A stretch of 36,589 nucleotides of DNA, taken from assembly GCA_014799735.1 (NCBI GenBank), contig JAAVHL010000086.1, positions 1 through 36,589 on the forward strand, written 5' to 3'. Numbering within the stretch: position 1 is the stretch's first letter; each line of letters starts with the position of its first letter. Below the pieces are notes generated by a model. The model was not told the origin of the DNA. It ran no database searches and was given only the letters and a program-made list of their open reading frames with translations. Below, piece by piece: positions 8,231 to 35,178 of the stretch. The translations under genes and the position numbers were made by a program. This DNA is from Ruminococcus sp. Lineage in GTDB: Bacteria; Bacillota; Clostridia; Oscillospirales; Ruminococcaceae.

Positions 8231-11200
8231 TTATCTTTTTTCAACGCTCTTTATGCGATATCTTTTTTTGCCTCCCTGTACAACCTTGAGCTTCTTGTTG
8301 TGGGGCATGATGTCGGGAAGCGTAGTTGAAAGAAGCACTCCCGAATTGAAGATTCCCGCAAAGTCGCCGTTTATGATTCCTCCGCCCGAAGAAATATCCT
8401 GAATATGCTCCTTGTAGATTACAAGCGCATAGGGGGAGAAGCTGGAGCATACGAACTGAACGCACCATATGTTGTCGATATCCACGATAGCGCAGGGCAG
8501 AACTTCAAGCGCTGTGTCCGCGGTACGGATCCAGTCCTCGGCGGAATCATCCGCTCTGATCTCCTCAGTATCCACCATTCCGTCGCCGATATGGACAACC
8601 GTGATGTAGTCGCGGTAAGCGATGAGCCTGTCGGGGATAGGCATGGTTATCGTTACGGTATAGCCGGGATTCGGCTCAACCTCGATCTTTGTGCCCTCTC
8701 TGTAAATGCTTATATCGAAAGGATAGATTATGAAGCTGCTCAGTCCGTCAGCGTAATTTTTAAGCACGTCCTTTACCGCATCGGTGGATTCCTTGTTTGT
8801 GGTAAAGTAAACGTCTACAGCCTCATCAAATGCGGCGTGGTTTGCGCTGGCGTCAATGTATTCGCTGTGGGAAATTCCGTAAGGAGTAGTACCCTTTACA
8901 TTAAGAACGGTGTCTACATCGGTGACGGAGCCTGTTGACGGAATTGCCGTTACCGACATGGAGTACTCGCCGTAAAATCTTTCGCCGTTTACGGTCTTAT
9001 AGGGAGCGACCATATAGGTGTACTTCTGACCGTTTTTAAGTCCCGTATGGGAATACTTGGTTCCGCTTATAACGGTTATAGGCTCAAACTCCATTGTTTT
9101 GGAATTGTAGAGATAAACAACGTATCCCTCCGCGCCCTTGACGGCTGTCCAGCTCAGGTCTACCTGACGGTTTCCCGCTGTCGCGACAAGGTCTATTACC
9201 GCATTGATGGAAATACCTGTAGTAATAGTTATAGACTTTGTAGGATTGCTGTATACTCTTGTTCCGTTTACAGTCTTATAGGCAACTACATAATATGTCC
9301 AGCTGTCGCCGTTAATGAGATTTGTATGAACATAAGCAGGTCTGCTCACATCAAACTGATAGGAACGTCCGCCGCCGTAAGCGTAAACTATATAGCCCTC
9401 CGCACCCTTGACGGCAGTCCATGTCAGAGAAGCCTGACCGTCTGTGGTCACTACATTGAAGTCCTTTGGAGAGTCAAGATTGTCGCCTATCGTAAAGGTA
9501 AGATGATTGGATTCGTCGAAGCTGTAAACTCTTTCGCCGTTTACGGTCTTATAGGCTTTTACGTAGTACTCGTATATGTCGCCGTTATTGAGACCCGTGT
9601 GCTGGAAGCTCGTTTTGCTTATATCGACTTCTTCCCATGCTCCGTTGTTTTTGCGGAAATACAGCATATAGCCCTCAGCGCCCTTTACCGCGGTCCATTT
9701 CAGATTAACGATACCGTCGGTAGTTGTTCCCGAGAAGTCCTTGGGAGCGTCGAGAGGCACTCCGACGATGACCCATGCCTCATCCGACCATGGGCTGTAG
9801 ACCGTTTCGCCGCTGACATCCTTGTAAGCCAGAACGCGGTAAGTATATCTGTCGCCGTTGCTAAGTCCTGAGTGAGTATATTGCGCAGCGGTAAGGTCGA
9901 AAACATTATCCGTAATCTGAGGTATGTCGTTTACAAACTCGATGCGCGTGCCATCCTTCTTAATATATTTATACTGAAGCAGATAACCTTTCGCGCCCGA
10001 CACGGCCGACCAGCTGATATTGACCGTTCCGTCGGTAGTAGTCGCTTTCAGGTTCTGAGGTCTTGCAAGAGTGCTGCCCACCTTGACCTTTACGGGTACG
10101 GATTTTTCGCCGTAAGTCGTCTGCGATTCATACTGCACCGTAACGGTTTTATATGCGGTTACCTCATATGTCAGCACATGGTCAAGCAGAAGTCCCTTAT
10201 GTACCTTTGTAGTTGTCTTTGAATCAAGAGTTCCTGTTACGACCTCTCCGTTATACTCGTCTGTATAAGTTATAGTATAGCCGGTAGCGTTGGGGACCCT
10301 GTCCCACTTGATCGTTACTTCGCCGTCCGCTGTGCATTCGGCTGTAACATTTTCGGGAACTCCGAGAAGACCTCCTACCGTTACATCAACAGATGTGGAC
10401 GGACCGTAAAAAGGCTTCGGCGGACCTGACTGAGGATTTACATTGACATACGGTGTAACAACATACGTATACACTTCGCCGTTAAACAAACCGTTGTGGT
10501 TGTAGGACAGATCGTTCGGTCCGAAGGTATCGTCAGTGAATATCGCAGGACTGCCGTCAGGGATAGTCTCAAGCGTCTTGGTATCAGGATTGTACCGCTT
10601 TTTCTGGAAAATTTCAAGCTTGTAGCCGTCAGCATTTCCGTAGCTGTTATTTTGGGTTCTTGATTGAGTCCACTGAAGCTTGACTTCTCCGTTGTCGGTG
10701 GTATATGAAATTCTTACCGTTGTAAGATTAAACTGCAGAGAACCTCCGTTACGTGCAGCTGTACCGCGGATCCTGTTTGTATCGTTTCTTGTCTTTGTGA
10801 TGAACGGAACAATATAGTAATAATACTGCGTATCCTTATTAATGTCGTAGTCGGTATGAGAAAGCGTTCTGTCCTCAAGGTACTCGCCGATTTTTTTAAG
10901 TCCGTATTCATTATTCGGTTTACTCGCATTTGTTACAAGCACGTTTACAAGGTCGTCCGACTCAATATCCACAGTAGAACGGTATATCTCAACACCAGTA
11001 TAAGTGCTTCCTGTATCCTTTTTCCATGAAACGGTTATAGATGATTTATCATAAGAAATGTTGCCGAATTCAATATAAGGAGCAACATACAGATCCTGAC
11101 ACAGGTTTCTGTTGTCGTCGGGATAACTCTGATACAGATTGTATATAGCTGTCTCGCCCAAGCTTATGGCATACAAGCTGCTGGTGACAAGACCCGTATT

Positions 11201-12430
11201 CGTAACATTGTACTGTGCCGGAGTTCCTCCCCATATGTTTTTGTATGCCTCAACAAAAATCTTGTAATGATGACCGTAAGACAGATCGTTGCCGAACAGT
11301 GTTCTGACACTGCGGCTTATTTTAGGGTTTCCCTGCGCGTTCGGCGCTATTTCCTGTTTTCTTGCAACCATTCTGCTGGTAGCAAAATCGTAAAGATATA
11401 CAATATAGCCATCGGGATATTCGCCTTGAACTGTCACGCCGTCACGTATCATCTGCGGCTGAGTCCATTCGATATTAACGTCATTAATGCTGTCGGGATA
11501 ATATTCTTCCGTTGACATACCGGACGCGTCTGTGAGAGAAACATTCATTGCCGCCGCGTCAAAATGCGTGTCGGCCTTCCCCAGATCAGCTGTACCGCCC
11601 GACAGGCTCGTAACAGGAGCAAAGGTAGTTCCTCCCGAAGGAGTAAGTGTAGATGTTGTCTGACCGGGATTATCGGGGTCGTCAACATTCTGGAGGTATA
11701 CCCAAGCAGGAACTCTGAAAATCGGGTTGATCTTTATATTCAGATTATTTGTGTAGTCGCCGAGCTTGACTTCAAAATCCCTGACGCTTGTATTTGTGTT
11801 ATTTATTGATTGATCGTACAGATTCTTTCCGCTTTGGTCGTTGATAATGATATTATATCCGGAAACAAACTGGGTAAGTTCATACGTCGTACCGAAAATA
11901 TCAGTGTATGGTTTGCTTTCAAGCTCCCATGAAAGTCTTATATTTCCATAAGCTTTTATGGTATCGCCGATCTTAACGCCCTGATATCCGTAAGCCGCCG
12001 TATAGTCATTATCATGAACGACTAAATTTGAACCCTGCGTTGAGTCACGCCAGAAATTCTCCATCTGACCGTTGTATTCCAGCTGTATCGGACCCATTGC
12101 AGCTGAAACATCAAAGCTTATCCCCAGCTCGGGAACGAACATCATCATAAAGGCAGCCGCCAGAAAAGCAGACATAACGCGTCCCCAGAAAGGCTTCTTC
12201 ACATAAACGATATCGTCCTGCCTGCGGGCTCTGGATTTTTCCTGAGGCTTTCTGACGCCGAGGAAGTTTCCGTTCTTGTCCGACAGAGCAAGATCCGCGC
12301 GGCACAGCAAAGCGTACCACAGCTTCACGAACAGCTCCGCGACAACGCAGGGGAGCCACATAAGCTTATTTTTGCTGCGCTTTGCCTTTAAGCGGCGCAG
12401 TATCGCTTTTTTGGTATTAAAGTCCAGCAT
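8231..12430 (-). CDS. Large surface/secreted protein with multiple fibronectin type III repeats
   Basis: Repeated FN3-like units of the form L(T/S)WTAVKGAEGYxxY...HxGLxNGDxYTYYVxAYKTVNGxRVYS; hydrophobic segment SAFLAAAFMMMFVPELGISF after a long charged N-region; ATG 12430 preceded by GGAGG RBS. Confidence 0.88.
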   Translation of the reverse strand: MLDFNTKKAILRRLKAKRSKNKLMWLPCVVAELFVKLWYALLCRADLALSDKNGNFLGVRKPQEKSRARRQDDIVYVKKPFWGRVMSAFLAAAFMMMFVPELGISFDVSAAMGPIQLEYNGQMENFWRDSTQGSNLVVHDNDYTAAYGYQGVKIGDTIKAYGNIRLSWELESKPYTDIFGTTYELTQFVSGYNIIINDQSGKNLYDQSINNTNTSVRDFEVKLGDYTNNLNIKINPIFRVPAWVYLQNVDDPDNPGQTTSTLTPSGGTTFAPVTSLSGGTADLGKADTHFDAAAMNVSLTDASGMSTEEYYPDSINDVNIEWTQPQMIRDGVTVQGEYPDGYIVYLYDFATSRMVARKQEIAPNAQGNPKISRSVRTLFGNDLSYGHHYKIFVEAYKNIWGGTPAQYNVTNTGLVTSSLYAISLGETAIYNLYQSYPDDNRNLCQDLYVAPYIEFGNISYDKSSITVSWKKDTGSTYTGVEIYRSTVDIESDDLVNVLVTNASKPNNEYGLKKIGEYLEDRTLSHTDYDINKDTQYYYYIVPFITKTRNDTNRIRGTAARNGGSLQFNLTTVRISYTTDNGEVKLQWTQSRTQNNSYGNADGYKLEIFQKKRYNPDTKTLETIPDGSPAIFTDDTFGPNDLSYNHNGLFNGEVYTYVVTPYVNVNPQSGPPKPFYGPSTSVDVTVGGLLGVPENVTAECTADGEVTIKWDRVPNATGYTITYTDEYNGEVVTGTLDSKTTTKVHKGLLLDHVLTYEVTAYKTVTVQYESQTTYGEKSVPVKVKVGSTLARPQNLKATTTDGTVNISWSAVSGAKGYLLQYKYIKKDGTRIEFVNDIPQITDNVFDLTAAQYTHSGLSNGDRYTYRVLAYKDVSGETVYSPWSDEAWVIVGVPLDAPKDFSGTTTDGIVNLKWTAVKGAEGYMLYFRKNNGAWEEVDISKTSFQHTGLNNGDIYEYYVKAYKTVNGERVYSFDESNHLTFTIGDNLDSPKDFNVVTTDGQASLTWTAVKGAEGYIVYAYGGGRSYQFDVSRPAYVHTNLINGDSWTYYVVAYKTVNGTRVYSNPTKSITITTGISINAVIDLVATAGNRQVDLSWTAVKGAEGYVVYLYNSKTMEFEPITVISGTKYSHTGLKNGQKYTYMVAPYKTVNGERFYGEYSMSVTAIPSTGSVTDVDTVLNVKGTTPYGISHSEYIDASANHAAFDEAVDVYFTTNKESTDAVKDVLKNYADGLSSFIIYPFDISIYREGTKIEVEPNPGYTVTITMPIPDRLIAYRDYITVVHIGDGMVDTEEIRADDSAEDWIRTADTALEVLPCAIVDIDNIWCVQFVCSSFSPYALVIYKEHIQDISSGGGIINGDFAGIFNSGVLLSTTLPDIMPHNKKLKVVQGGKKRYRIKSVEKR
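8940..10370 (-). repeat. Coding tandem repeats (FN3 units, about 90-92 codon period)
   Basis: Near-identical DNA blocks such as CCCTCCGCGCCCTTGACGG at 9126, 9396 (CCCTCCGCACCCTTGACGG) and about 9672 (CCCTCAGCGCCCTTTACCG), spacings about 270 and 276 nt. Confidence 0.75.
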
Positions 12431-12599
12431 AAATACCTCCACATATTACATAGGACATAAAGCGTCCGTCAAATTATTTTTAAAGACAATAAGCCATTGT
12501 TATAATAATACCATATTTTCATAAAAAAGTAAAGGAATTTATATCGGCAATTTTGCACAAATTTACACACCGATCATCAATATTTTGTATAAAATCCGA

Positions 12600-21185: not shown

Positions 21186-22565
21186 ATGGAGTCCGACGGG
21201 TACCCCCGAAGTCTTATTATTCTTGCAGTCATACTATATAAAGGTTTCTGCACCGTATGCGAATCGGCTGTGACCGAGACAGACTGGCGGAAGCTTAAAA
21301 ATTCCGAAAAATCAAAGCGGGAGAAGCTTCTTGCCGATATGACGGAAAAGCCCGCGCGTCTTATGACGGCGTTTTCCGTAAACAGAACGCTTACGGGCAT
21401 TGCGGCCGCTTATCTGGCAATGATATTCTTTCTCGCGCCTCTGTCGGGACTTGTGTTCCGTCTTGTAAACGGCGAAGCTGCCGAGGCAGCGGCTTACAGC
21501 GACCCCCTTGCGGACGTTATTGCCGCGCTGCTTATAATGATAGTCACGGTGGTGGTATTTACTTCTTTCTGCGAGGGCATACCCAAAAGGCTGCCCGCAG
21601 CGAAAAGCGAGAAGTTTGCGGTTTTCTGCGCACCATTTGTAAAGCTTTTGGTGACAGTCCTTACGCCGCTTACCGCGCTGTCCTCCCTGCTCACAAGGCT
21701 GCTTGCCCCGCTTTTCGGAGCGAAAAACGGCAGCGAGCCCGATATCGTCACCGAGGAAGAAATACTCATGATGGTGGACGCGGGTAACGAAACGGGCGTT
21801 ATTGAGGAATCCCAGAGGGAAATGATAAACAATGTTTTCGAGTTTGACGACCTTACCGTTTCGGATATAATGACCCACCGTACCGATATCATTGCGGTGG
21901 AAATGTCCGCAAGGGTGCCGGAGGTTGTGAACGCCGCCATAGGAAGCGGCTTTTCACGGATACCAGTCTACGAGGAAACTATCGACCATATCGCGGGAAT
22001 GATCTGCGTTAAAGACCTGCTCTGTCTGGTAGGCTCCGAATCCGCGGAGGATACCGAGGCGAAAAGCTTTATGCGGGATATCATATATCTTCCCGAATCC
22101 GTCCCCTGCGGAGAAGCTTTCAAGCGGCTCACGTCAGAAAAAATGCAGATGGCTGCCGTTGTTGACGAGTACGGCGGAACGGCGGGTCTGGTGACAATGG
22201 AGGATATAGTCGAGAGGATAGTCGGAAATATTCAGGACGAGTACGACGAGGAAGAAGCCGCGCTTACCGAAATTTCCGAGGACACCTACGTTATCGCGGG
22301 CAATGCCGACCCCGAGGAGATACTTCCCGTTTTCGGGATAGAGCTTCCCGAGGAAAACGGCTTCGACACAATGAACGGCTTTATCGCCGAGCTTCTGGGA
22401 CGCATACCCGAAGAAAACGAAAATCCCTCTGCCGAATACGGCGGAGTGCTTTTCACCGTCCTGCTTACCGAGGACCGGTGTATTACCAAGATCAAGGCAA
22501 AAATTATCAAGGATACTGTAACAAGCGAAGAAAAGGAGAGTATGCAAAATGAAGAAAAAAATTAG
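21186..22565 (+). CDS. CNNM/hemolysin-family protein (DUF21, CBS pair, CorC_HlyC domain)
   Basis: NVFEFDDLTVSDIMTHRTDIIAVE, GFSRIPVYEETIDHIAGMICVKDLL, MQMAAVVDEYGGTAGLVTMEDIVERIVGNIQDEYDEEE. ATG 21186 preceded by AAAGGAAG. Confidence 0.95.
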   Translation: MESDGYPRSLIILAVILYKGFCTVCESAVTETDWRKLKNSEKSKREKLLADMTEKPARLMTAFSVNRTLTGIAAAYLAMIFFLAPLSGLVFRLVNGEAAEAAAYSDPLADVIAALLIMIVTVVVFTSFCEGIPKRLPAAKSEKFAVFCAPFVKLLVTVLTPLTALSSLLTRLLAPLFGAKNGSEPDIVTEEEILMMVDAGNETGVIEESQREMINNVFEFDDLTVSDIMTHRTDIIAVEMSARVPEVVNAAIGSGFSRIPVYEETIDHIAGMICVKDLLCLVGSESAEDTEAKSFMRDIIYLPESVPCGEAFKRLTSEKMQMAAVVDEYGGTAGLVTMEDIVERIVGNIQDEYDEEEAALTEISEDTYVIAGNADPEEILPVFGIELPEENGFDTMNGFIAELLGRIPEENENPSAEYGGVLFTVLLTEDRCITKIKAKIIKDTVTSEEKESMQNEEKN

Positions 22566-24207
22566 TCTGATCCTTGCATTCTTAATGACGGCGACAATGC
22601 TTGCCGGCTGTAAGAAAACCAACGAGGATTCCGCGGGACTTCCCGATGTGGGCGGCGACAGCTCGTCTATGTCCCTCACTCAGATGACTACAGAGTCCGA
22701 GACAGAGGAGACAACCACGGAAACTACCACGGTTCCCGAGGAGACTACTACGGAGGATACGACCTCGGAAAGCGAAACTGAGACAAGCGAGACGGAAACT
22801 ACCACCGCAGCTTCCACCGAAGCCACGGCGGCAACCGCTTCCACAGCAGCCGCAAAGGCCTGGAACGAGACCGAGATCAGCGAGACCCTTTACATAAAGA
22901 CCTCCTGCTACTCCAGAACTCAGGCTATCGTAGGTTCGGAATCCGTTAAGAAATACGACGTAGGTCAGAAGATCAACATCGTTGCCGCAACCGATACGGG
23001 CTACTACAAGCTTGCGGACGGCACATTTATCCACTCCGATTACGTTACCGACCAGAAGCCCACTGAGGCTACTCAGGCGACCACCACCGCTCCCAAGAAA
23101 ACAGAAACTCCCGAAGAGACTACAAAGAAGCCGTCCAATACATCTATTGTAAACGCTTCCTACACCAAGAGCTACAAGGACAGATACCCCTATCAGCAGC
23201 TCAACAGCGCCGAGCAGCAGCTTTACGCCGATATCGTTGAGGCTGCCGAAAACTTCTACACTCAGGTAGATATCCCCTCCTCGCTCTCTTCGGACGATAT
23301 CGTTAAGGTGTACGCCCTCGTCTACAATCAGGAGCCCCAGCTTTTCTGGATGTCAAATATCGTTCCCGTTGCGCTGGGCGGTATGCTCAACCTCCAATAC
23401 GACCTTACTGCCTCACAGGCGGCTTCCGCTCAGAAAGAAATAGACGCCACCGTAAGCGATATTATGAGCAAGGTGAACGGCTATTCAAGCACAGTAAGCA
23501 GACTTAAGGTTATTTACGACTGGGTTATCACCCACAATACATTCAGCCTTCAGGGCAACTACAGAACCTGCGGTATCTACAACGGCCTTACAGACGGCGG
23601 AGAGCTTCAGTGTCAGGGCTACGCAAAGACAGTCCTTTACCTCTGCGACATTGCCGGTATCGAATGCATGGTCGTAACAGGCAACAACACCGAGGGCAGC
23701 ACTCACGCATGGAACGTTGTTTACTGCGACAACGGCTACTATATTCTCGATACAACATGGGGCGACCCGATGAACAACTACGGCAGAAGCAGCTATGTGC
23801 GCTACCTGTTCTTCCTTGCAAACGATGACATGATCAAAAACAGCCACCTCAACGTCAGCACCGTTGCAAGAGGAAACGGAAACCGTATCAAGCTGTACAA
23901 TCCTCCTGCCTGCACAAAGACGGCGTGCTACTACTTTAAGGCTTACAATAAAGAATACAGCGACCTTGAATCCGCAACTCAGGCTATGTATGCCGAGATC
24001 GACGCGGCTGTATCGGCGGGCAAGAACGTTGCTCACATAAGGGTAACAGACCACGACCTTTGGGAAACCCTCCGCGACAAGAAGTACTGGAAGGCTTTCC
24101 AGGATTACGCTAAGAAGAAAGACAGCAGCGTAAAGAATCTTGTACAGCAGACCTACCTCACCGAGGATATCCTCGTTGTGGAGTACGATATAGCGTACAA
24201 CGACTAA
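22549..24207 (+). CDS. Lipoprotein with Thr/Glu-rich linker, SH3-like domain and transglutaminase-like domain (paralogue 1)
   Basis: Lipobox MTATMLAGC; SH3-like LYIKTSCYSRTQAIVGSESVKKYDVGQKINIVAATDTGYYKLADGTFIHSDYV; transglutaminase core QCQGYAKTVLYLC...STHAWNVVYCDNGYYILDTTWGDP. Overlaps the upstream gene by 17 nt. Confidence 0.88.
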   Translation: MKKKISLILAFLMTATMLAGCKKTNEDSAGLPDVGGDSSSMSLTQMTTESETEETTTETTTVPEETTTEDTTSESETETSETETTTAASTEATAATASTAAAKAWNETEISETLYIKTSCYSRTQAIVGSESVKKYDVGQKINIVAATDTGYYKLADGTFIHSDYVTDQKPTEATQATTTAPKKTETPEETTKKPSNTSIVNASYTKSYKDRYPYQQLNSAEQQLYADIVEAAENFYTQVDIPSSLSSDDIVKVYALVYNQEPQLFWMSNIVPVALGGMLNLQYDLTASQAASAQKEIDATVSDIMSKVNGYSSTVSRLKVIYDWVITHNTFSLQGNYRTCGIYNGLTDGGELQCQGYAKTVLYLCDIAGIECMVVTGNNTEGSTHAWNVVYCDNGYYILDTTWGDPMNNYGRSSYVRYLFFLANDDMIKNSHLNVSTVARGNGNRIKLYNPPACTKTACYYFKAYNKEYSDLESATQAMYAEIDAAVSAGKNVAHIRVTDHDLWETLRDKKYWKAFQDYAKKKDSSVKNLVQQTYLTEDILVVEYDIAYND

Positions 24208-24272
24208 AGATCAAATACACGGGGCGGGGGTCGAATAACGTTTTCTACCCTCAGCCCCCGTATTCGTAAATG

Positions 24273-24295
24273 ACCGCTCGGATAAGCGGTATCCG
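24273..24295 (+). promoter_or_regulatory. Two overlapping, mutually exclusive short hairpins in the 5' leader of paralogue 2
   Basis: ACCGCT-CGGATA-AGCGGT (24273-24290) versus CGGATA-AGCGG-TATCCG (24279-24295, sharing T24290). Confidence 0.35.
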
Positions 24296-24331
24296 TAAAA
24301 TAAGCAAGAACACTGAAAGGAAATAAAAACT

Positions 24332-25699
24332 ATGCTGAAATCTAAAAAATTTTATTCCGTACTGGCGATTGCCGCCGCACTGACAATCTGCGCTGCAGGA
24401 TGCAGCAGCGAGGACGGAGGCAGCGGAGAGGTCTCCGCTTCTGTAAACGTAATAGGCGGTGACGGCGCTGCGGACGGCTCCGAGCCTCAGGAGACTGCCT
24501 CGGGCGTGATCGTTACCGACGAAAACGGCGAGGCGGTCACGGGCGCTAACGGAAACGTTCTTACCGAACCTGCCCATACCGAACCCCTTCCCACAGATAC
24601 TCTAAGCGAGGACGATATCCTCAACGCTATGACAGCTGCCACAACGGCAGCTCCTCAGCTGAACATCCCCTCGACCAATACCGAAAGATACGGCTACTCC
24701 ACCCTTACCGCCGAGGAGAAAAAGCTTTACGACGAGATCGTTGCGGGAATAGAGGGACTGCGCTACAAGATCTGCGAAGAGGACGCTTACTCCCTTGAGG
24801 AATGGTCAAAGATATACGGTCTTGTTTATATGCAGGAGCCCCGTCTGTTCTACATGAACGCAAAGCTTAAGGTCGGCAAGCTTTACTACCTCACTAAGGA
24901 CGCCTCCGTTATCAACGATATGCAGAAGTCCATTGACGCCGTTGCCGACAAGCTTGTTGCCGAAGCGAACGGAAAGTCCACGACCTTTGAAAAGCTCAAG
25001 GTTTTCCACGACTATCTTGTACTTAACTCCACATTCGAGCTCAAGGAAGAGCTTACAAATTACAACTCCACCATTTACAACGCCCTCGGAAGCGGCGAAG
25101 CGCAGGGAAATATCCAGTGCGCAGGCTACGCAAAGGCTATGCAGTACCTCTGCGACAGGGCGGGTATCGTAAGCATGGTCGTAACCGGCGAGACCTCTAC
25201 CGGTCAGACCCACGCGTGGAACGTTGTGGACGTTGACGGAAAATGGTACAATCTGGACGCAACGTGGGACGACCCGATCCTGAATACCCCCAACTACAAG
25301 AATATCCGCTACAACTTCTTCCTTGTTCCCGACAGCGGCATTCATAACCTTACACATATGCACGTCGGTCAGAAAAAGCTTTCCAACGGCAACTACATCA
25401 CATATTTCACGCCTCCCGCCTGCGTAAGCAACGACAAGAACTATTTCGTTACAAACGGTCTTGTTTACAGCGACTTTGATTCCGCTGACAAGGCGATAAG
25501 GGCTGAGATCGAAAGAGCTGCCAAGGACGGCTCCAGAACCGCACAGATCGCGGTAAGCTCCAAGGACGTTTACAAGCAAGTCTACGACGCCAGAAATGAC
25601 TATAACGGCTATGCAAAGGGCTTTTCGGGAGTTAAGGGCGTCAGCGACGAATGCAACGAAAATCTGTTGGTGATCGAGTTCGACGTTATCTATAACTAA
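24332..25699 (+). CDS. Transglutaminase-like lipoprotein (paralogue 2)
   Basis: Lipobox ALTICAAGC; QCAGYAKAMQYLCDRAGIVSMVVTGETSTGQTHAWNVVDVDGKWYNLDATWDDP; RBS AAAGGAAA. Confidence 0.9.
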   Translation: MLKSKKFYSVLAIAAALTICAAGCSSEDGGSGEVSASVNVIGGDGAADGSEPQETASGVIVTDENGEAVTGANGNVLTEPAHTEPLPTDTLSEDDILNAMTAATTAAPQLNIPSTNTERYGYSTLTAEEKKLYDEIVAGIEGLRYKICEEDAYSLEEWSKIYGLVYMQEPRLFYMNAKLKVGKLYYLTKDASVINDMQKSIDAVADKLVAEANGKSTTFEKLKVFHDYLVLNSTFELKEELTNYNSTIYNALGSGEAQGNIQCAGYAKAMQYLCDRAGIVSMVVTGETSTGQTHAWNVVDVDGKWYNLDATWDDPILNTPNYKNIRYNFFLVPDSGIHNLTHMHVGQKKLSNGNYITYFTPPACVSNDKNYFVTNGLVYSDFDSADKAIRAEIERAAKDGSRTAQIAVSSKDVYKQVYDARNDYNGYAKGFSGVKGVSDECNENLLVIEFDVIYN

Positions 25700-25713
25700 T
25701 TTTTGGTGCTTTT

Positions 25714-26874
25714 ATGAAAAAAACAATATTTGCCGTCTCCGTTCTCTGCGCGGCTCTCGTGCTGTCCTCATGCAGGAGGGTAGCCGAAGAGCCCGCGGGG
25801 ACTACGGCTGACGCCAACAATTATTACGGATATCCCTCGGACGAGGAATTTGTCTCGCCTGTGTACGCCTCCCTTTCGGAGGAAGAAAAGGCGGTCTATG
25901 ACAAGATTGAAGCCGCCGTGGCGGATTTCAGGGATACGGTATCGTTTAACCCTCCTATCTCGCGGGATACGGCAAGCAAAATATACAGACTGGTCTATTC
26001 ACAGGAACGCAGGTATTTCTGGCTGAGCAACCTTTTCTACGCTCCCGAAAGCGAGATATCGGTGCTGAGCCTGCACTATCTGTACAGCAAAAGCGACGCG
26101 GAAGCAAAGCGCGCGGAGCTTGATATCGCCGCCTCGACGATAATAGGAGAGCTTCCCGACGACGCGTCCGATTTCGACAAGGTCGTGTATTTCCACGACA
26201 AAATCGCAACGACCTGCTCTTTCAGCGATTCCGCCGAGCATATCAATTCGGCTTACGGAGTTCTTGTAACGGGATACGGTCAGTGCGAGGGCTACGCCGC
26301 GGCAATGACCGCTCTCTGCGACAAGGCTGGGATACCAAATTACACGGCCTTCGGTCAGACAAAGGACGGCATTTCCCACGCATGGAACAAGGTGCTGCTG
26401 AACGGCAGATGGTATAACGTGGACTGTACATGGGACGATCCTATCCTGAGCAGAAACGACCCCGGCTTTGTCCGGCATGACTATCTTCTGGTAAAGGACA
26501 GCGAGATCGAAGAAAAGACCCATTTCCCCAGCGACCTTTGCAGCGGTCTTACCTCCTGCGAAAGCGACGATATGAACTATTTTGCCGCAAAGGGACTGGT
26601 CTTTGACACGGCCGCCGACGGCACAGCCGCTCTGACGGAACAGATAAAATCTGCGGGGCTGGCGGGAAAGCGTGAGGCGGAAATACGCTTCTCCTCCGAA
26701 AATGCCTATTTTGCCGCTATGGCGCGGCTTTTTGACAGCAAGGAGCTTAAGGACATTATCGAGGACATAAACGGAAGCTGCGGAACTCATATCCGTTCAG
26801 CATACAAGCACAACAACGACGATATGCGGATAATCCATATATCGCTTATCTATGAGTCAGACCCGGAGGAATAA
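25714..26874 (+). CDS. Transglutaminase-like lipoprotein (paralogue 3)
   Basis: Lipobox LCAALVLSSC; QCEGYAAAMTALCDKAGIPNYTAFGQTKDGISHAWNKVLLNGRWYNVDCTWDDP; only 14 nt after paralogue 2. Confidence 0.9.
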   Translation: MKKTIFAVSVLCAALVLSSCRRVAEEPAGTTADANNYYGYPSDEEFVSPVYASLSEEEKAVYDKIEAAVADFRDTVSFNPPISRDTASKIYRLVYSQERRYFWLSNLFYAPESEISVLSLHYLYSKSDAEAKRAELDIAASTIIGELPDDASDFDKVVYFHDKIATTCSFSDSAEHINSAYGVLVTGYGQCEGYAAAMTALCDKAGIPNYTAFGQTKDGISHAWNKVLLNGRWYNVDCTWDDPILSRNDPGFVRHDYLLVKDSEIEEKTHFPSDLCSGLTSCESDDMNYFAAKGLVFDTAADGTAALTEQIKSAGLAGKREAEIRFSSENAYFAAMARLFDSKELKDIIEDINGSCGTHIRSAYKHNNDDMRIIHISLIYESDPEE

Positions 26875-26899
26875 TTTTTACCTGAAAGAGGTGCAGCCG

Positions 26900-28486
26900 A
26901 TGCGGGAATACAAACCCAGACGCAAATCCATTATTTGCCTTACAGCCGCGGCTGCCGTCTGCGCTGCGCTGACGACAGGCTGCTATAACAACGGAAGCTC
27001 CGCCTATTGGGAGGACACTCTTCCCTCCGCGGAAACGGAAAGCTCCCGTCCCACGGCAGTATACCTTACTGAGGAGACGGAAGATAGCAGCGACCCGATA
27101 ATAATACCTACTTCTGAATCCACAAAGCGCACAGCCTATTCGGAGCCCGACCCCGAGCTTGCTACAACTGTCTCCTCGGAACGCTCCGCCGACACCGATT
27201 CGGAAGCTTCAACGGTTTCGGGAGTTCCCAACGTTCCGATCTCAGAATTTACCAGCACCACTCCCGTAAATTTGGCGACCCAGACAAGCGCTTCTTCAAG
27301 CTTCTCCTTTTCGGCAGCGACTTCGGCTTCGGCGGCGACAGCTTCGTCCGACAGTACGGGATCGTCCTCGGTAAGCTCATCAAGCACTGCTTCGGAAACC
27401 ACAGGCTTTCTGGACACGGAAACAAGTACGGTGGGTACCCCCTCCGCCTCCGATCTGAACCGACCCTACAGCTACCGCTTCCTCGACGAAAAGCATAAAT
27501 TTGTTTACGACCAAATAATAAGCACGGCGGAAAAATACGGAAGCACTATTAATTTTTCCGCGGACAACAGCGTTACCTCCGATGAATACTGCGACATTTA
27601 TCAGATCATATACGACGACGAACCGTCGCTGTTCTATATTGACAAAAAAATGCAGTACGCCGTCAACTCCAGCACCAAACAGCTTGCCAACGCAAAGCTG
27701 TTCTACAAATATAACAACAGCGTTATCGAAAAAATGCAGGGCGAGATCGACGCGGAGGTAAACAGTATTCTCGGTATGGTCACCGCGAATATGACCGACT
27801 ACGACAAGGTGAAGCTTTTTCATGACGTGCTGGCGTCTACAGTCGAGTACGACGAAAATGCGGCAAACTGCCGCGACATATACGGAGTTTTTGTGGATAA
27901 GAAAGCTATTTGCGGCGGCTTCTCAAAAGCGTTTTCCTACCTTTGCAGCAAGGTGGGCATCGAGACCGTTACCGTTACCGGCGACGCGGACGGCACTCCC
28001 CATATGTGGAACAAGGTCAAGATCGACGGAAAATGGTACAATATAGACATAACCTACGCCGTATCGAATTCAGCCGACACGTCTTATGTCAGATACGACT
28101 ATTTCTGCGTAACGGACAAAATGCTGACGGCAAGCCGAACCGTCTACGAACAGAGCTATAAGTACCCAGAGGCAAATTCCGACGACTGCAATTATTTCGT
28201 AAAAAACAATCTTGTAGCCGAAAGCTGGACGGAAGCGCGCATACTGCTCCGCGACGGTCTTATCGAGTGCGCAAAGGACAAAACCTCACCCGTGCAGGTA
28301 AAATGCGCCGACAAGGACATATACGACGAAGCCGTATTCAATCTGTTTGACAGCTCCAGCAAGCAGGCTCTGGATATCTACGACGAGGCGTATGAGGATG
28401 CGAAAAACAAATACAACACCTCGGTGGTCAACTTCAGCTACGACGCTACATCTCTGGTCATCAAGCTGTTTCCGGAATACTACTGA
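26900..28486 (+). CDS. Transglutaminase-like lipoprotein with long Ser/Thr-rich linker (paralogue 4)
   Basis: Lipobox AAVCAALTTGC; AICGGFSKAFSYLCSKVGIETVTVTGDADGTPHMWNKVKIDGKWYNIDITYAVSN. ATG at 26900 has an RBS (AAAGAGG); the track start 26852 overlaps paralogue 3. Confidence 0.88.
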   Translation: MREYKPRRKSIICLTAAAAVCAALTTGCYNNGSSAYWEDTLPSAETESSRPTAVYLTEETEDSSDPIIIPTSESTKRTAYSEPDPELATTVSSERSADTDSEASTVSGVPNVPISEFTSTTPVNLATQTSASSSFSFSAATSASAATASSDSTGSSSVSSSSTASETTGFLDTETSTVGTPSASDLNRPYSYRFLDEKHKFVYDQIISTAEKYGSTINFSADNSVTSDEYCDIYQIIYDDEPSLFYIDKKMQYAVNSSTKQLANAKLFYKYNNSVIEKMQGEIDAEVNSILGMVTANMTDYDKVKLFHDVLASTVEYDENAANCRDIYGVFVDKKAICGGFSKAFSYLCSKVGIETVTVTGDADGTPHMWNKVKIDGKWYNIDITYAVSNSADTSYVRYDYFCVTDKMLTASRTVYEQSYKYPEANSDDCNYFVKNNLVAESWTEARILLRDGLIECAKDKTSPVQVKCADKDIYDEAVFNLFDSSSKQALDIYDEAYEDAKNKYNTSVVNFSYDATSLVIKLFPEYY

Positions 28487-28591
28487 CCTTTCAGCGCGGC
28501 TGATATCCGTTAATACTACAGTCGGACGGGTTCGGACATTGTATAAGACGGCCTGAGCTCCCGCCCGCCGACCGTTCGGGAGGCACAGTAC

Positions 28592-29785
28592 TTGCGAAAA
28601 CTTAAATATGCGGCAGCCGCGCTTGTTCTGTGTCTTTTTGCGTCCGGCTGCTCGGACAATCAAAACGTTGAATATCATATTTATTCGGGAGGATCGCTCC
28701 TGGATTCGGGTGTGGTCACACCTCCCGAAAGCAAAAAAAACAACAGCGCGGATTTCTACATTCCCGACGGCATGGAGACCGATTACTACAGGACATACGC
28801 CCTTACCGATGAGGAACGTGATATCTATGATGATACAGTAAAAAGTCTCGGAAGGCTCAAGGATGCGGTAACACTTCCCGTAGACTCCAACGTATACGGA
28901 AGGATACTCGAAACGATCCGCCTTGAACAGCTCTCCTTCAACCATATTTCCACCTGGCGGCTTGACTACGCCACCGCAAAGCAGGCGTTTGAGGTAAGCT
29001 TCTATTACCGCCTTACCGCCGACGAAATAAGCAGTATGAACATTGCTGCCGAAAGAGCCGCAAAGGATATCATATCTCGGCTCAAGCCCGATATGGACGA
29101 CTACGAAAAGCTGAAATTTTTTCACGACTACCTTGTGCTTAACTGTGAGTCCGACCCCGAGGACGAGTACGCCGACACTATTTACGGGGCGCTTGTGCGA
29201 AAAAAAGCTTTGTGCGAAGGCTACACAAAAGCGTTTTCCTATCTGTGCAACCTTGCGGGTATAGAAAATGTGATCGTTACGGGAAAAACCACCGTCCCCC
29301 ATATGTGGAACATGGTCAAGCTCGGCGGAAACTGGTATCATGTGGACGTGACCTGGGACAAGCCCGACGATGAGCTGCACAAGGAATACCCCGACGTTAT
29401 TTTGTATCAGTACTTTATGGTAACGGACTCCGTGATCAAGAACAATCATACCATTGTGGATTATCCCGCCGAGCCGCCAAAGGCTTACGGCACGGAGGAA
29501 AACTATTTCGTGCGGGAGGGTGCGGACGTTACCAAGGACGGCGAGCTTCTTGTCGCTGCGGAAAACGCCATTATGGACGCGGTAAGAAACCGCAAAACCA
29601 GCGCAATGGTAAAGTTCTCCACTACCGACCTTTATCTGTCCTCTCTGGCAGACCTGAGCAACGAGAAGCTGTTTACCTCCGTAATAGAGCGTGTGAACGC
29701 CGAGTGCAAGGAAAATATCGGTCTGCAATGGACGGATTACTACGGACAGTACCGCATACTTACCTTTATAATCAATTACAACTGA
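28592..29785 (+). CDS. Transglutaminase-like lipoprotein (paralogue 5)
   Basis: TTG start after GGGAGG; lipobox LCLFASGC; ALCEGYTKAFSYLCNLAGIENVIVTGKTTVPHMWNMVKLGGNWYHVDVTWDKP. Confidence 0.88.
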   Translation: MRKLKYAAAALVLCLFASGCSDNQNVEYHIYSGGSLLDSGVVTPPESKKNNSADFYIPDGMETDYYRTYALTDEERDIYDDTVKSLGRLKDAVTLPVDSNVYGRILETIRLEQLSFNHISTWRLDYATAKQAFEVSFYYRLTADEISSMNIAAERAAKDIISRLKPDMDDYEKLKFFHDYLVLNCESDPEDEYADTIYGALVRKKALCEGYTKAFSYLCNLAGIENVIVTGKTTVPHMWNMVKLGGNWYHVDVTWDKPDDELHKEYPDVILYQYFMVTDSVIKNNHTIVDYPAEPPKAYGTEENYFVREGADVTKDGELLVAAENAIMDAVRNRKTSAMVKFSTTDLYLSSLADLSNEKLFTSVIERVNAECKENIGLQWTDYYGQYRILTFIINYN

Positions 29786-29821
29786 AAAGACCTTTCCGAA
29801 CTGTTCCGGAAAGGTCTTTTT
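29785..29821. terminator. Bidirectional intrinsic terminator between convergent genes
   Basis: AAAAGACCTTTCCG-aactgttc-CGGAAAGGTCTTTT perfect inverted repeat with flanking A and T tracts. Confidence 0.92.
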
Positions 29822-29831
29822 GTTTTGTCCT

Positions 29832-30584
29832 TTATACCTTTTGCGACTGCACAAGCCGCGCCGCAAACGCAACGGCAGAGTCGGGAAGAAATCTTGAAGC
29901 AACTATTGCTGCCTTGACGGACAGCGTAGGCGTTATCAGCATTTTACGGGCAAACATACCCTTGACTGCGCATTCCGCCGCATATTCGCTTGAAATGCCC
30001 TTGAGCGCAAATTTTACTCCCGCCGTGCTGTTGAACTGGGTATCAACGGGCCCGGGACAGAACGCTCCGATATAAACCCTGCTGTGCTGAAAGCGAAGCT
30101 CTTCGTGTATCGCTTCCGTAAGCCTTACCACATAATTTTTGGACGCGTAATAGGTGGACATAAGCGGCCCCGGCATAAAGCCCGCAATCGAAGCCACGTT
30201 CAGGATATAGCCCTTGTCCCGTGCGGAAAAGTCACGCAGGAAAAGCTTGGTAAGAATGTGTACCGCTCCGATATTCACGTCTATCATGTCAAGCTCCCGC
30301 TCCAGCTCGGTGACGCTGAACTTTCCGAACAGCCCGAAGCCTGCGTTGTTCACAAGGATATCCACGCCGTAAGCGGACGCCTCCCTGTACAGCCTCAGGC
30401 ATTCTCCGCGGTGGGAAATATCTGCGGCAATGACCTTTACCCGTCTTGCGCCTATCTCCTGCCTGAGAGCCTCCAGCCGCTCCCTGTCTCTTCCCGAAAT
30501 TATCAGCCGTATACCCATTTTGCCCAGCTTTCGCGCTATGTCTCTGCCTATTCCGGAGCTTGCTCCCGTTATCAATGCAGTCAT
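29832..30584 (-). CDS. Short-chain dehydrogenase/reductase (SDR)
   Basis: MTALITGASSGIGRDIARKLG (TGxxxGIG), DILVNNAGFG (NNAG), STYYASKNYVVRL (YxxxK). ATG 30584 preceded by CGGAGG. Confidence 0.95.
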   Translation of the reverse strand: MTALITGASSGIGRDIARKLGKMGIRLIISGRDRERLEALRQEIGARRVKVIAADISHRGECLRLYREASAYGVDILVNNAGFGLFGKFSVTELERELDMIDVNIGAVHILTKLFLRDFSARDKGYILNVASIAGFMPGPLMSTYYASKNYVVRLTEAIHEELRFQHSRVYIGAFCPGPVDTQFNSTAGVKFALKGISSEYAAECAVKGMFARKMLITPTLSVKAAIVASRFLPDSAVAFAARLVQSQKV

Positions 30585-30598
30585 TGTCAGACCTCCGT

Positions 30599-32893
30599 TT
30601 AGTTTTTTTCGGTATTTTGCCGTTTGCTGTTTTTCCGTGCCTTTTTCATTGCCTTTGCCTGAGCCTTGTAGCACTCAAACGCTTTGCCGAACGCGTCCCT
30701 GTCTATCTCGCCGCCGCCGTAGCAAGCCCTTGTAAACGGGCTTGTCAGCGGGTCAAGGCTTTGTCCCGTGGTTTCGTCCGCAAAGCGCTCCATCTGCTCG
30801 GGGGTAAACGCCGCAAAGCTTTCGCCGAATCGTCGCTCCGCATTTTTAATATACCTGTTGTACAGCATGATAACGCCTTTTCCGCAGTCCGCGCGCTTCG
30901 CTCTGAGCCTGAACACGCCCTCCGCGATCTTTGGAGAGATCAGTACAAGAACTATAAATATTCCGAATCCCACCGCAAAAACTGCCGCCGTAAGGATAGC
31001 CGCGGTATAATCGCTGTCCTCGTCCCCGGACGCGCCGTTTCCTCCCGAACCTATATAGCCCGCGGGAGTAGGCTCAAACCTTGTCCAGCCCGCCACGGGA
31101 ATATATACCTCGGGATAGGCGTGAGCGTTATCGCTGTAAATGAAATAAGTTCCCTCTGTTTCGGGAGACGGCTGCGGAACAAAGCCCTCCGCGTATCTTG
31201 CCGTAAGTCCCGCCGCTCTTGCCAGCAGAACATAGGCGCGCGCATAATCGGAGCATATTCCTGTCCTGCTTTCAAACAGAAAATATTCGGGAGTATCCAT
31301 TCCCTCGGGCGGCTCGAAGCCAAGGTCGTACCGGAAGCTTCCGCCCGTAAAATAATTCTCGATAGCCTTTGCCTTTTGGTAATCGTACTCCAGACCCGCC
31401 GTCAGCTCGTCGGCAAGAGCCTGTATCTCCGCCGATACCTCCGTCGTATGGTCTTCCTTGTACTGTTCTGCAAGAACACTTTCCTTTCTGAATTCGCGCA
31501 GAACGGAATATTCCTCGGAATCGCCGTCTATGTACCATATCGCGTCCCAAAGGAAATCACCCCATTCCTCCGCGCTTATATCGCACAGCCCGCTTTCCAT
31601 AAGACTGCTCAGAGTTCTTTCGCTGTAGTACCTTACCGTATAGTTCAAGTTAGGAGCAAGCAGCGCCATATTTGTGAAAACCTCACCCGCGTCGGAACGT
31701 GCGATCCATGAGACCCTGCTGTCGGATATGCTGACCTCGGTGGTTCTCAGAGGAGCGGGAACATACACCGCGGGAAAGTTCTGGGCATAAACAATGCTGT
31801 AGCTCTGATAGTCTGTGACCTCCGCGATCTGTTCCGCCCAAGGGTACTCGCTGAACAGCATATCCTCCTCGTCAAGATAGCCGTATTCCTCAGCCTCCGC
31901 CCTTATCATTTCGTCCGCCAGCTTCACAGCCGAGGAAAGCTTTTCAAAGCTGAGCAGATGTGCGTCCTCCTGCCATGACTTGCTGCCGTATACAGTATCG
32001 TCGGGATTTGTCCAAAGTCCCGTTTCACTGTCGTAGTCGTTGAAGACCTGTGTCTTCATATATGTTGTCTCGGACGAGCTGACAATATACAGCAGTATGC
32101 TTTCGCCTCTTAAAAGCTCGTCAACGCGTCCCGAAGCCTGCGTGTACTCGCCCTGATACTCGGTCTCGCCGCTGCCGCCGAAGCTGAACATACTTACCGC
32201 CGCCTCAAATTTTTCATAATAAGGCGTCTCCTCAGGCTTGGGAGCGATCAGAGCAAGCAGTACCGCCGCTATGGCAAAATCCGTATAGACCGTTGCCGCC
32301 GAGCCTGCCGCGCTTTTTTCGGACGAACCTTTAAGCAGTCTTTTCCGTCCGTCGATAATAAAGAATATCAGGTTTACGGACGCTATCGCCGCCGCATACG
32401 CAAACGGCAGAACCGCCGCCGCCTTTACCGCCAGCGCAAAGGGTATCAGCGATACCAGCGCAAGCATTGAGGAGCGGTAGATTATTCTCGTAAAATAATA
32501 ATACGCCGACGCAAGGAAAAAGGTCATCATCGGCATAAGTGTCAGCATAAAGCTGACGCGGGTCTCTTCAGCCTGCGCGCCCGAGAAAAACCATCTTATA
32601 AACGCAAATCTGTCCTCCCAAGCTCCGCCCACAAACACAGACGGAACGATCATGCCCAAGGTGATCAGCGTGCCGAAGTATATAAGACCTCCGAGCTTTT
32701 TGCTGCGTAAAAAGTCAAAAAATTTTATCAGTCCCGCAGCCGCGGCAGCTCCCGCTATAATATAAATGTCTATGGCGTTTTCCGTGTAGATATACAGCGA
32801 CGCCGATATCGAAACAACGCACAGCAGCCACAAAAGGAAAATCTCGCCATGCTTTTTCAGTATGCGGAAAATTTTTTCCGCCGCGTCCTCCAT
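30599..32893 (-). CDS. Multi-TM transglutaminase-like protein (TgpA-like architecture)
   Basis: N-terminal multi-TM block, transglutaminase core ESRTGICSDYARAYVLLARAAGLTARYAEGFV...DNAHAYPEVYIPVAGWTRFEPTP, a further TM helix and a cytosolic C-terminal domain. Confidence 0.9.
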   Translation of the reverse strand: MEDAAEKIFRILKKHGEIFLLWLLCVVSISASLYIYTENAIDIYIIAGAAAAAGLIKFFDFLRSKKLGGLIYFGTLITLGMIVPSVFVGGAWEDRFAFIRWFFSGAQAEETRVSFMLTLMPMMTFFLASAYYYFTRIIYRSSMLALVSLIPFALAVKAAAVLPFAYAAAIASVNLIFFIIDGRKRLLKGSSEKSAAGSAATVYTDFAIAAVLLALIAPKPEETPYYEKFEAAVSMFSFGGSGETEYQGEYTQASGRVDELLRGESILLYIVSSSETTYMKTQVFNDYDSETGLWTNPDDTVYGSKSWQEDAHLLSFEKLSSAVKLADEMIRAEAEEYGYLDEEDMLFSEYPWAEQIAEVTDYQSYSIVYAQNFPAVYVPAPLRTTEVSISDSRVSWIARSDAGEVFTNMALLAPNLNYTVRYYSERTLSSLMESGLCDISAEEWGDFLWDAIWYIDGDSEEYSVLREFRKESVLAEQYKEDHTTEVSAEIQALADELTAGLEYDYQKAKAIENYFTGGSFRYDLGFEPPEGMDTPEYFLFESRTGICSDYARAYVLLARAAGLTARYAEGFVPQPSPETEGTYFIYSDNAHAYPEVYIPVAGWTRFEPTPAGYIGSGGNGASGDEDSDYTAAILTAAVFAVGFGIFIVLVLISPKIAEGVFRLRAKRADCGKGVIMLYNRYIKNAERRFGESFAAFTPEQMERFADETTGQSLDPLTSPFTRACYGGGEIDRDAFGKAFECYKAQAKAMKKARKNSKRQNTEKN

Positions 32894-34038
32894 CAGATTT
32901 TACCGCCTTTTTTCATCATGATCAGAACAGTCGCAAGAACCGCAATGATCATAGCCATTACCACAATTACTATCACAACGCCCACGCTGAGACCGCCCGA
33001 CTGTGCGGACTGAGCGGGCTGAACAGACTGAGTGTCGGTTTGTCCCTGAACGGGAACAGCCTCAGCCTCGGAGACATCCGTCTGAGGCTCGTCATTCTCT
33101 GCCTCGGTTTCTGCGGCAGCCGCTTCATAGGTCTCGCTGTTCTCTGCGGATATCTCCGCCTTTAGGGAATACTCCCCCGTAAGGTCGGCCGCAATGGTGA
33201 TATTGTTCTGCTTCCAGCTTTTGTAGCTTTCGGCGGAATCCTCATAGCAATGCACCGCCGCGCTTACGTTGCGGAAAACGTCGCTGTCCAGAGCGGGAGC
33301 CTCCTCGCCGTAAGCGTAGATATCTTTAAGATTATTGCAGTCGGCAAAAACGCTGCCGCCTATCTTTTTCACGTCCGGACCTATCGAAATGCTCTCAAAG
33401 CCGCACTTGCTGAAGGTGTTGGGGTACAGCTCCGATATCCCCGCGGGGATAACAAATTCGGTTATCGCCTTGCAGTCCTGAAACGCGCCCTCACCGATAT
33501 AGGTCACAGCCGCCGATACGGGGACTTCCTCCAGCGCCTCGCAGGCGGCAAAGGCGTAGTCGTCAATTTTTGTAACGGTTGCGGGCATCAAGACCTTGAC
33601 AAGCTTTCTGTTGCTCGAAAAAGCATTTTTGCCTATCTCGACGGTATTTTTCGGCAGGGTCAGCACCGTAAGCTGATTGCGGGAGGGCAGGGCGTTTTCG
33701 GGAATTATCCCGCCTTCGGTCTCCGTACCCGCAAGCTCGACTATCTCCAGATTGGGTATAGCCGTAAGCGCATTGTAATCCTCTGCGTTCAGCGTACCTG
33801 ACAGCACCGCGATATTCTTTATGAAATTGTAGTCCGTGCCGTCTGCGGCTTCGCTGATAGCGTCCGCAAGCTTTCCCGTCTCAAAGGACTGCACCGTAAG
33901 GTTTTCGGTACTTTCCTCCGCTCTTGTGGGGATAGCCATTATGATTATACCCAGAAAAATAGCCACCGCAATAATTAATATCAGTATTCTTTTTACAAGA
34001 GGTCTTTTCTTTTTTTTATCGTATCTGAACTTTGCCAT
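32893..34038 (-). CDS. Membrane-anchored leucine-rich repeat (LRR_5/BspA-like) protein
   Basis: N-terminal TM (ILILIIAVAIFLGIIIMAI), LRR_5-type repeats (LTLPKNTVEIGKNAFSSNRKLVKVLMPATVTKIDDYAFAACEALEEV...), C-terminal TM VGVVIVIVVMAMIIAVLATVLIMM. TGATG coupling to the transglutaminase gene; ATG 34038 preceded by AAAGGAG. Confidence 0.85.
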   Translation of the reverse strand: MAKFRYDKKKKRPLVKRILILIIAVAIFLGIIIMAIPTRAEESTENLTVQSFETGKLADAISEAADGTDYNFIKNIAVLSGTLNAEDYNALTAIPNLEIVELAGTETEGGIIPENALPSRNQLTVLTLPKNTVEIGKNAFSSNRKLVKVLMPATVTKIDDYAFAACEALEEVPVSAAVTYIGEGAFQDCKAITEFVIPAGISELYPNTFSKCGFESISIGPDVKKIGGSVFADCNNLKDIYAYGEEAPALDSDVFRNVSAAVHCYEDSAESYKSWKQNNITIAADLTGEYSLKAEISAENSETYEAAAAETEAENDEPQTDVSEAEAVPVQGQTDTQSVQPAQSAQSGGLSVGVVIVIVVMAMIIAVLATVLIMMKKGGKI

Positions 34039-34062
34039 ATGTACTCCTTTCACACTATAGGG

Positions 34063-34941
34063 TCACGGGCTTTCCGCGCTCTGTACCGCGGCTTCGCTCT
34101 TTTGTTCTGCACTGCGTGCGTCCTCGTCCCGACCGATGGAAAAATGTCCCGCTATCTGGATATCCTGCGGAGTGAACAGCAGAACGTCCGTGGTAAGAGG
34201 ATTTTTCGCTTTTCTGTAGTCGCTGAGAATGACCGTGCCAAGTCCCTCTAAAATGTTGTTGGTAATATTTTTCAGCACCAGCAGGTTTTCCCGCGACGGC
34301 GCAACAACCAGAAACTTCGCCCCAAGCTTTTCGTACACCGCCGATCTGAACTCGTTGCACAGGATAAGCGAGCTGCAAAAGGCGGGAGAGGCTATCTGGA
34401 ACTCCAGAGCCGTAACGCTTTCGGTGAGGGTCTCCTCGTTTATCTCGGCTTTTGAAAGTATCTTGCACATATTTCTGTCCGCCACCGAAAAGACCACCTC
34501 ACGGGGAACTCCCCACCTTTTGAGGGTATCCTCGTCAAGGAAGTGGATTATCTCATCGTCGGGCGTATAGACCGCCACCTTTTTCAGACCCTCCACAAAG
34601 TCCGCGCTTATCATATCGGGGGTAACGTCCTTTTCCCGCATGACAAGCAGGCGCAGGAACTCCTGACCGTTGGTAAAGGACACCATTCTGCCCTTTGTCA
34701 GGCAGTCGTGCTCCAGACGGTTTATCAGTCTGTCAAGCTCCTCGTCGGAGCGGTTTTTCTCATATGCCGCCCGCGCTTCGCCCACGTCCACCGTAAACAC
34801 CACCGTGCCGTTGGACACCTCGTACAGATTTTCGTCCTTTTTTGAAACGACGCTGAACTGCCGCCGTTTCAGTGCATTTCTGAAGCCGGCGTCGAACTTA
34901 TCCCTGCTAAAGACCCCGCCGAATTTTTCTGCGAGCTTCAT
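34063..34941 (-). CDS. Conserved protein of unknown function, possibly DUF1444/YtpQ-like
   Basis: Long ORF MKLAEKFGGVFSRDKFDAGFRNALKRRQFSVVSKKDENLYEV... ending 24 nt upstream of the LRR gene; family resemblance weak and by memory only. Confidence 0.55.
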   Translation of the reverse strand: MKLAEKFGGVFSRDKFDAGFRNALKRRQFSVVSKKDENLYEVSNGTVVFTVDVGEARAAYEKNRSDEELDRLINRLEHDCLTKGRMVSFTNGQEFLRLLVMREKDVTPDMISADFVEGLKKVAVYTPDDEIIHFLDEDTLKRWGVPREVVFSVADRNMCKILSKAEINEETLTESVTALEFQIASPAFCSSLILCNEFRSAVYEKLGAKFLVVAPSRENLLVLKNITNNILEGLGTVILSDYRKAKNPLTTDVLLFTPQDIQIAGHFSIGRDEDARSAEQKSEAAVQSAESP

Positions 34942-35178
34942 AAGCCGCAGTCCTCCTTTTATCGTATATATATTTCATTATAACATATTTCAATCAATTT
35001 GTATAGCCGATTTTTAATTTTGTTGGGAAAAATTTTTATAGCCACAGTTTGTAATCGTTGCCAAATTTGTTAACAGTCTGTCAAAAAAAAACAATCTATT
35101 CAACACTTTATTTACAAATTCCTGTACAATATTTATCGGTATGTTTTTACATAAATCTACAACAAAGGAGTTAATATC

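Follow-up and report, generated by a model that had tools for sequence, protein, structure and literature searches.

A membrane LRR protein gene conserved beside a TgpA-like transglutaminase gene belongs to a rearranged Oscillospiraceae gene set

Introduction

The role of the widespread MoxR-DUF58-TgpA gene trio is, to our knowledge, poorly understood. According to earlier work cited in PMC6803598, a paper on the PFNA operon, a MoxR gene is often found ahead of DUF58 and transglutaminase genes. In Pseudomonas aeruginosa, the isolated domain of TgpA has transglutaminase activity in vitro and tgpA is essential (PMC3507681). In Bifidobacterium longum GT15, the PFNA operon pkb2-fn3-aaa-atp(MoxR)-duf58-tgm is a single transcription unit (PMC8430577). 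A further arrangement occurs in Ruminococcus flavefaciens FD-1, in which ORF01263-01267 are head-to-tail dockerin genes, four of them transglutaminase-like and one LRR (PMC2930009). Our search of the open literature returned no description of an LRR protein together with MoxR-DUF58-TgpA, most subscription papers lying outside its scope. Here we describe a locus in which an LRR gene directly precedes a TgpA-like gene, and trace it to a larger operon.

Results

A co-directional unit of four genes

The window, the whole stretch of DNA analysed (36,589 nucleotides), is the entire contig C71 of a draft genome, about 79% complete, of a gut-type Ruminococcus sp. The locus comprises the following features.

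29783..29822, no strand assigned: terminator-like hairpin of 16 pairs, separating the convergent array from the orf292-LRR-TgpA-SDR unit
29832..30587, minus strand: SDR oxidoreductase, last gene of the unit (adh_short E 3.8e-43)
30599..32893, minus strand: TgpA-like polytopic membrane transglutaminase-like enzyme (Transglut_core; Cys547/His591/Glu607)
32891..32895, minus strand: TGATG in the junction sequence, the LRR-TM stop overlapping the TgpA start
32893..34038, minus strand: LRR-TM, an LRR_5 protein
34063..34941, minus strand: orf292, conserved predicted cytosolic protein, first gene of the unit
34977..35005, minus strand: candidate promoter, TATACA-17-TATAAT with extended -10, 36 bp before orf292 (consensus match only)

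All four genes are read from the minus strand, only short distances apart, and form a co-directional unit; SDR begins about 14 bp past the TgpA stop. The junction sequence bears out the preliminary description in that the TgpA-like and LRR_5 genes share a TGATG stop/start, with a one-base overlap. As a class, promoter consensus matches such as the candidate before orf292 are not above shuffled expectation. Elsewhere in the window, and unrelated to the operon, positions 8231-12442 encode a protein of 1403 aa that carries fibronectin type III domains together with a hydrophobic stretch at its N-terminus.

The TgpA-like enzyme

The 764-aa TgpA-like protein matches Transglut_core (PF01841) with an E value of 2.7e-23, scoring 82.7 bits where the cut-off is 23. 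It is indeed, as first described, the sixth such protein in the window, out of eleven in the whole genome. Its closest PDB relative is the protein-glutamine gamma-glutamyltransferase 6g49, which we take to be P. aeruginosa TgpA. Compared with a Cys-His-Asp catalytic triad, Cys547 and His591 are invariant in an alignment of 32 linked TgpAs, and the third residue, Glu607, is Glu in 31 and a gap in one (L047 has Asp). The window protein does not match the TgpA_N domain (PF11992), which 3 of 16 relatives match, and we thus call it TgpA-like rather than TgpA proper. Hydropathy predicts seven N-terminal TM segments, an acidic 415-residue loop carrying the transglutaminase domain, one further TM segment and a basic tail, the predicted outer domain comprising residues about 218-632. 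The protein is 27-37% identical to those TgpAs of MoxR-containing operons that were aligned. MoxR-DUF58 is missing directly upstream of this gene, whereas 14-15 related loci have the pair there.

The LRR-TM protein and orf292

LRR-TM matches LRR_5 (PF13306, E 1.2e-27), and its LRR domain resembles BspA-type LRR structures in the PDB both by sequence and by fold. Its likely start is the ATG at 34038, which has AAAGGAG upstream; the GTG at 34053 is merely the longest-ORF start. From a structure model, secondary structure and hydropathy we derived the layout: a likely signal peptide is followed by a conserved N-cap, the BspA-type LRR_5 domain, a stalk that is acidic and of low complexity, a C-terminal TM segment and a short basic tail. 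The preliminary description had placed TM segments at both ends: the C-terminal one stands, while the hydrophobic segment at the N-terminus closes with an Ala-acidic motif (PTRA|EE), similar in most orthologues as judged by eye, and is more plausibly a signal peptide. LRR-TM is thus probably a type I membrane protein with a cleavable signal peptide and a single C-terminal TM segment. Mean column identity among orthologues is 0.72 in the N-cap, 0.69 in the LRR domain and 0.65 in the TM segment, as against 0.40 in the stalk.

These features raise the question of whether LRR-TM might be a substrate of TgpA, crosslinked or processed by it and so fixed at the surface. The two proteins share an operon and are predicted to face the same outer side of the membrane, of the 39 orthologues, 36 keep the Gln Q122 and 35-37 keep several Lys, and the isolated transglutaminase domain of P. 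aeruginosa TgpA was active in vitro (PMC3507681). The conserved Lys residues, however, occupy repeat positions of the LRR and could have a structural role, Q122 lies within a folded region, and LRR-TM persists at loci where TgpA lies elsewhere. We consider the substrate reading improbable. Moreover, since the transglutaminase fold also occurs in some proteases and in other acyl-transfer enzymes, TgpA need not be a crosslinker.

Upstream of LRR-TM, orf292 had no match in Pfam, NCBIfam or PADLOC and no TM segment by hydropathy; its AlphaFold model (mean pLDDT 85.5) gave no significant PDB match. A label of "SseB-like", given from appearance, was dropped, as no library backs it. We also set aside a defence-system reading, the search for which gave nothing except one weak DolB match to MoxR.

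Linkage of LRR-TM and TgpA is conserved

The preliminary description had suggested a neighbourhood analysis for recurring transglutaminase/LRR_5 co-localisation, with a lack of conserved linkage in other genomes counting against its hypothesis; the surveys found linkage at most orthologue loci. We covered 21 genomes of the genus, 149 genomes of the family searched for relatives of the pair (17 regions were read, from 13 of them), and a genome collection that yielded 39 LRR-TM orthologue loci (L076-L114) under the names Oscillospiraceae, Ruminococcus or Clostridia. Because many of these 39 are the same genus genomes under public names, the genus and 39-locus counts are not independent.

Both genes are present at least in part in 20 of 21 genus genomes, G161 having neither. 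In 17 of the 18 genomes that have both on a single contig, LRR immediately precedes TgpA on the same strand, with no MoxR-DUF58; in G093 they are about 12 kb apart on opposite strands, and in G159 and G149 they sit at the ends of separate contigs. Of the 39 loci, 31 show linkage to the same TgpA lineage and one to a different DUF58-TgpA; six show none, and L080 is cut off by a contig edge. The 31 comprise 16 with LRR-TgpA direct, 14 with LRR-MoxR-DUF58-TgpA (in one, L111, DUF58 was not called as an intact ORF), and L101, which has the latter order with a CRISPR-like array inserted between LRR-TM and MoxR. That array (L101:8389-9232) contains 13 repeats at about 67 nt spacing. At L114, LRR-TM is joined to a different, canonical-type DUF58-TgpA; over L114:717-5385 its reading frame is split in two and followed by that gene set. 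In one subclade (L083, L084, L090), a terminator-like hairpin with a T-run lies between the LRR-TM and TgpA genes, which counts against a partnership of the two.

Could such proximity arise by chance, LRR_5 genes being common enough for some to fall near a transglutaminase gene? Some family relatives do have many LRR_5 matches, but there are no more than about four such genes in the genome of the window itself, and one orthologue, in one order and on one strand, is met again and again at protein identities as low as about 35%. We regard chance as having next to no probability. Among the LRR_5 matches listed, none but the LRR-TM orthologues are near TgpA.

In the wider family, orf292-LRR-MoxR-DUF58-TgpA runs in one direction in four genomes (G002, G137, G021 and G112), while orf292-LRR lies away from TgpA in three (G125, G119 and G091), and several relatives have MoxR-DUF58-TgpA with LRR-TM absent. 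Together with the six unlinked loci (L093, L095, L104, L108, L110 and L112), these last cases indicate that neither LRR-TM nor TgpA strictly requires the other as neighbour. At L104:7227-10223, orf292, LRR and SDR are consecutive and TgpA is missing. SDR follows TgpA throughout the genus wherever the contig continues, as well as in 15 of the 16 direct LRR-TgpA loci and nine of the MoxR-containing loci.

The pairing of orf292 with LRR is tighter than that of LRR with TgpA: orf292 is directly upstream of LRR at all 37 loci whose contig reaches that far, including the six without TgpA. This adjacency invites another explanation, in which orf292 and LRR-TM are the functional pair, a surface sensor or adhesin with its cytosolic partner, and TgpA is a neighbour through history only. 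Against it, TgpA linkage is kept at most loci despite a rearrangement that removed the intervening genes, and L114 was re-linked to another TgpA type. We think this explanation unlikely, and a functional partnership of LRR-TM and TgpA likely from the pattern of linkage. Tree-distance correlations were high for nearly all gene pairs and so lend no specific support to interaction.

MoxR-DUF58 relocated within the genus

In distant Oscillospiraceae the order is orf292-LRR-MoxR-DUF58-TgpA(-SDR), with MoxR and DUF58 identified by Pfam (the DUF58 matches being weak, at E 0.0015 and 9e-5). The TgpA tree, a quick tree with some long branches, groups the loci lacking MoxR in one clade (SH-aLRT 99, with G093 inside it), a single change from LRR+MoxR. 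The displaced pair lies on contig C101 of the window's genome: its MoxR is 72% identical to the G002 operon copy and 43% to the same genome's second MoxR on C66, and its DUF58 40% versus 22% in the same comparison. Orphan MoxR-DUF58 pairs likewise occur in G093 and G166. In addition, a separate contig of the genus genomes (C66 in the window's genome) bears a canonical MoxR-DUF58-TgpA set, and the LRR gene belongs with the non-canonical set, not with that of C66.

Tree and identities indicate that MoxR-DUF58 relocated to another contig in the window's genus, once on the TgpA tree, and that its departure brought LRR and TgpA together. Since the ancestral operon has MoxR-DUF58 in between, the direct LRR-TgpA junction is derived. 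The one-base TGATG overlap is restricted to the window and the three relatives nearest to it (L076, L077 and L078), other genus members having short gaps; this distribution marks the exact overlap as younger than the direct junction.

The neighbouring lipoprotein array is a separate cluster

Next to the operon, at 22549-29785 on the plus strand, are five tandem transglutaminase-fold lipoproteins in which Cys, His and Asp are kept across paralogues. The TgpA-like gene does end some 800 bp from this array, as first described (814 bp from its end at 29785), and the gap holds the convergent SDR gene. Given this gene and the hairpin, array and operon are convergent and not co-transcribed. The array model is matched by all 21 genus genomes, usually as a cluster, and adjoins the operon only in the window's genome (G000), G157 and G160; G158 was left out of this judgement, as its contigs end. 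In G152, the flanking genes w16654, ParA and SfsA lie beside SDR, with no array at that spot. The array is thus a separate conserved cluster, and its position beside the operon in so few genomes makes the "14 kb TG/LRR region" a local coincidence.

Neither this comparison nor the listed LRR_5 matches support a single functional region made up of the array, TgpA, LRR-TM and the LRR lipoproteins. Nor do transglutaminase and LRR genes alternate: the actual order is five transglutaminases (plus), then SDR, TgpA, LRR and orf292 (minus), then an LRR lipoprotein (plus). This last is one of two LRR lipoproteins proposed at 35-36.6 kb; the second leaves the window before any LRR.

Discussion

We propose, as a reading that has somewhat the better chance of being right, that LRR-TM serves a MoxR/DUF58-dependent TgpA as its recognition partner outside the cell, the two deriving from a rearranged orf292-LRR-MoxR-DUF58-TgpA-SDR operon. 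In this model, orf292, LRR-TM, TgpA and SDR would be the remnant, at one site, of that Oscillospiraceae operon. TgpA would be a membrane enzyme with its transglutaminase-fold domain outward, as its predicted topology suggests, assembled or activated by the cytosolic AAA+ ATPase MoxR and a membrane-tethered DUF58, as proposed for the widespread trio; dependence on MoxR/DUF58 within the window's genus, where the pair is displaced, is what we infer from the operon of its relatives. LRR-TM, held by its C-terminal TM segment, may be a subunit for recognition or an adaptor outside the cell, either binding TgpA or delivering a target to it. After MoxR-DUF58 left, LRR and TgpA would have become neighbours and, in four close genomes, translationally coupled. 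More speculatively, the set could be a lineage-specific membrane system in which the LRR ectodomain subunit and the new cytosolic family orf292 target a MoxR/DUF58-regulated TgpA to modify the bacterial surface or an external ligand, a proposal we hold only tentatively.

If this last proposal is true, then, taken together with PFNA, it would make MoxR-DUF58-TgpA a modular engine to which interchangeable recognition subunits can be fitted. That a second lineage has a gene dedicated to an extracellular partner where Bifidobacterium has FN3 suggests a general layout of recognition subunit plus ATPase-controlled membrane enzyme, for which the LRR-TM/TgpA set offers concrete partners for testing.

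Set against described systems, the locus resembles operons of MoxR (MRP subfamily), DUF58 and transglutaminase such as that of P. aeruginosa tgpA (PA2875-2874-2873), which likewise encode a membrane transglutaminase-fold enzyme with its transglutaminase domain outside the cytoplasm; in most relatives outside the genus, MoxR and DUF58 are also directly upstream of TgpA. Here, however, LRR-TM and orf292 are added upstream and SDR downstream, MoxR-DUF58 lies elsewhere in the window's genus, and Glu stands in place of Asp at the putative third catalytic residue. With the Bifidobacterium PFNA operon the locus shares a gene, just upstream of MoxR-DUF58-TgpA, for a secreted protein that has both a TM segment and a beta-rich domain of the recognition type. 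The PFNA gene set itself is not present at the window locus: FN3 domains and a Ser/Thr kinase there contrast with a BspA-type LRR protein in the FN3 position and orf292, without a family match, upstream. R. flavefaciens FD-1, from the same broad bacterial group, also has genes for secreted transglutaminase-like proteins in tandem, accompanied by an LRR gene, but its proteins are dockerin-bearing and cellulosomal, and the cluster is closer to the lipoprotein array than to the TgpA/LRR pair. The LRR/TgpA set is one part, rearranged, of a bigger membrane gene set that is known in part.
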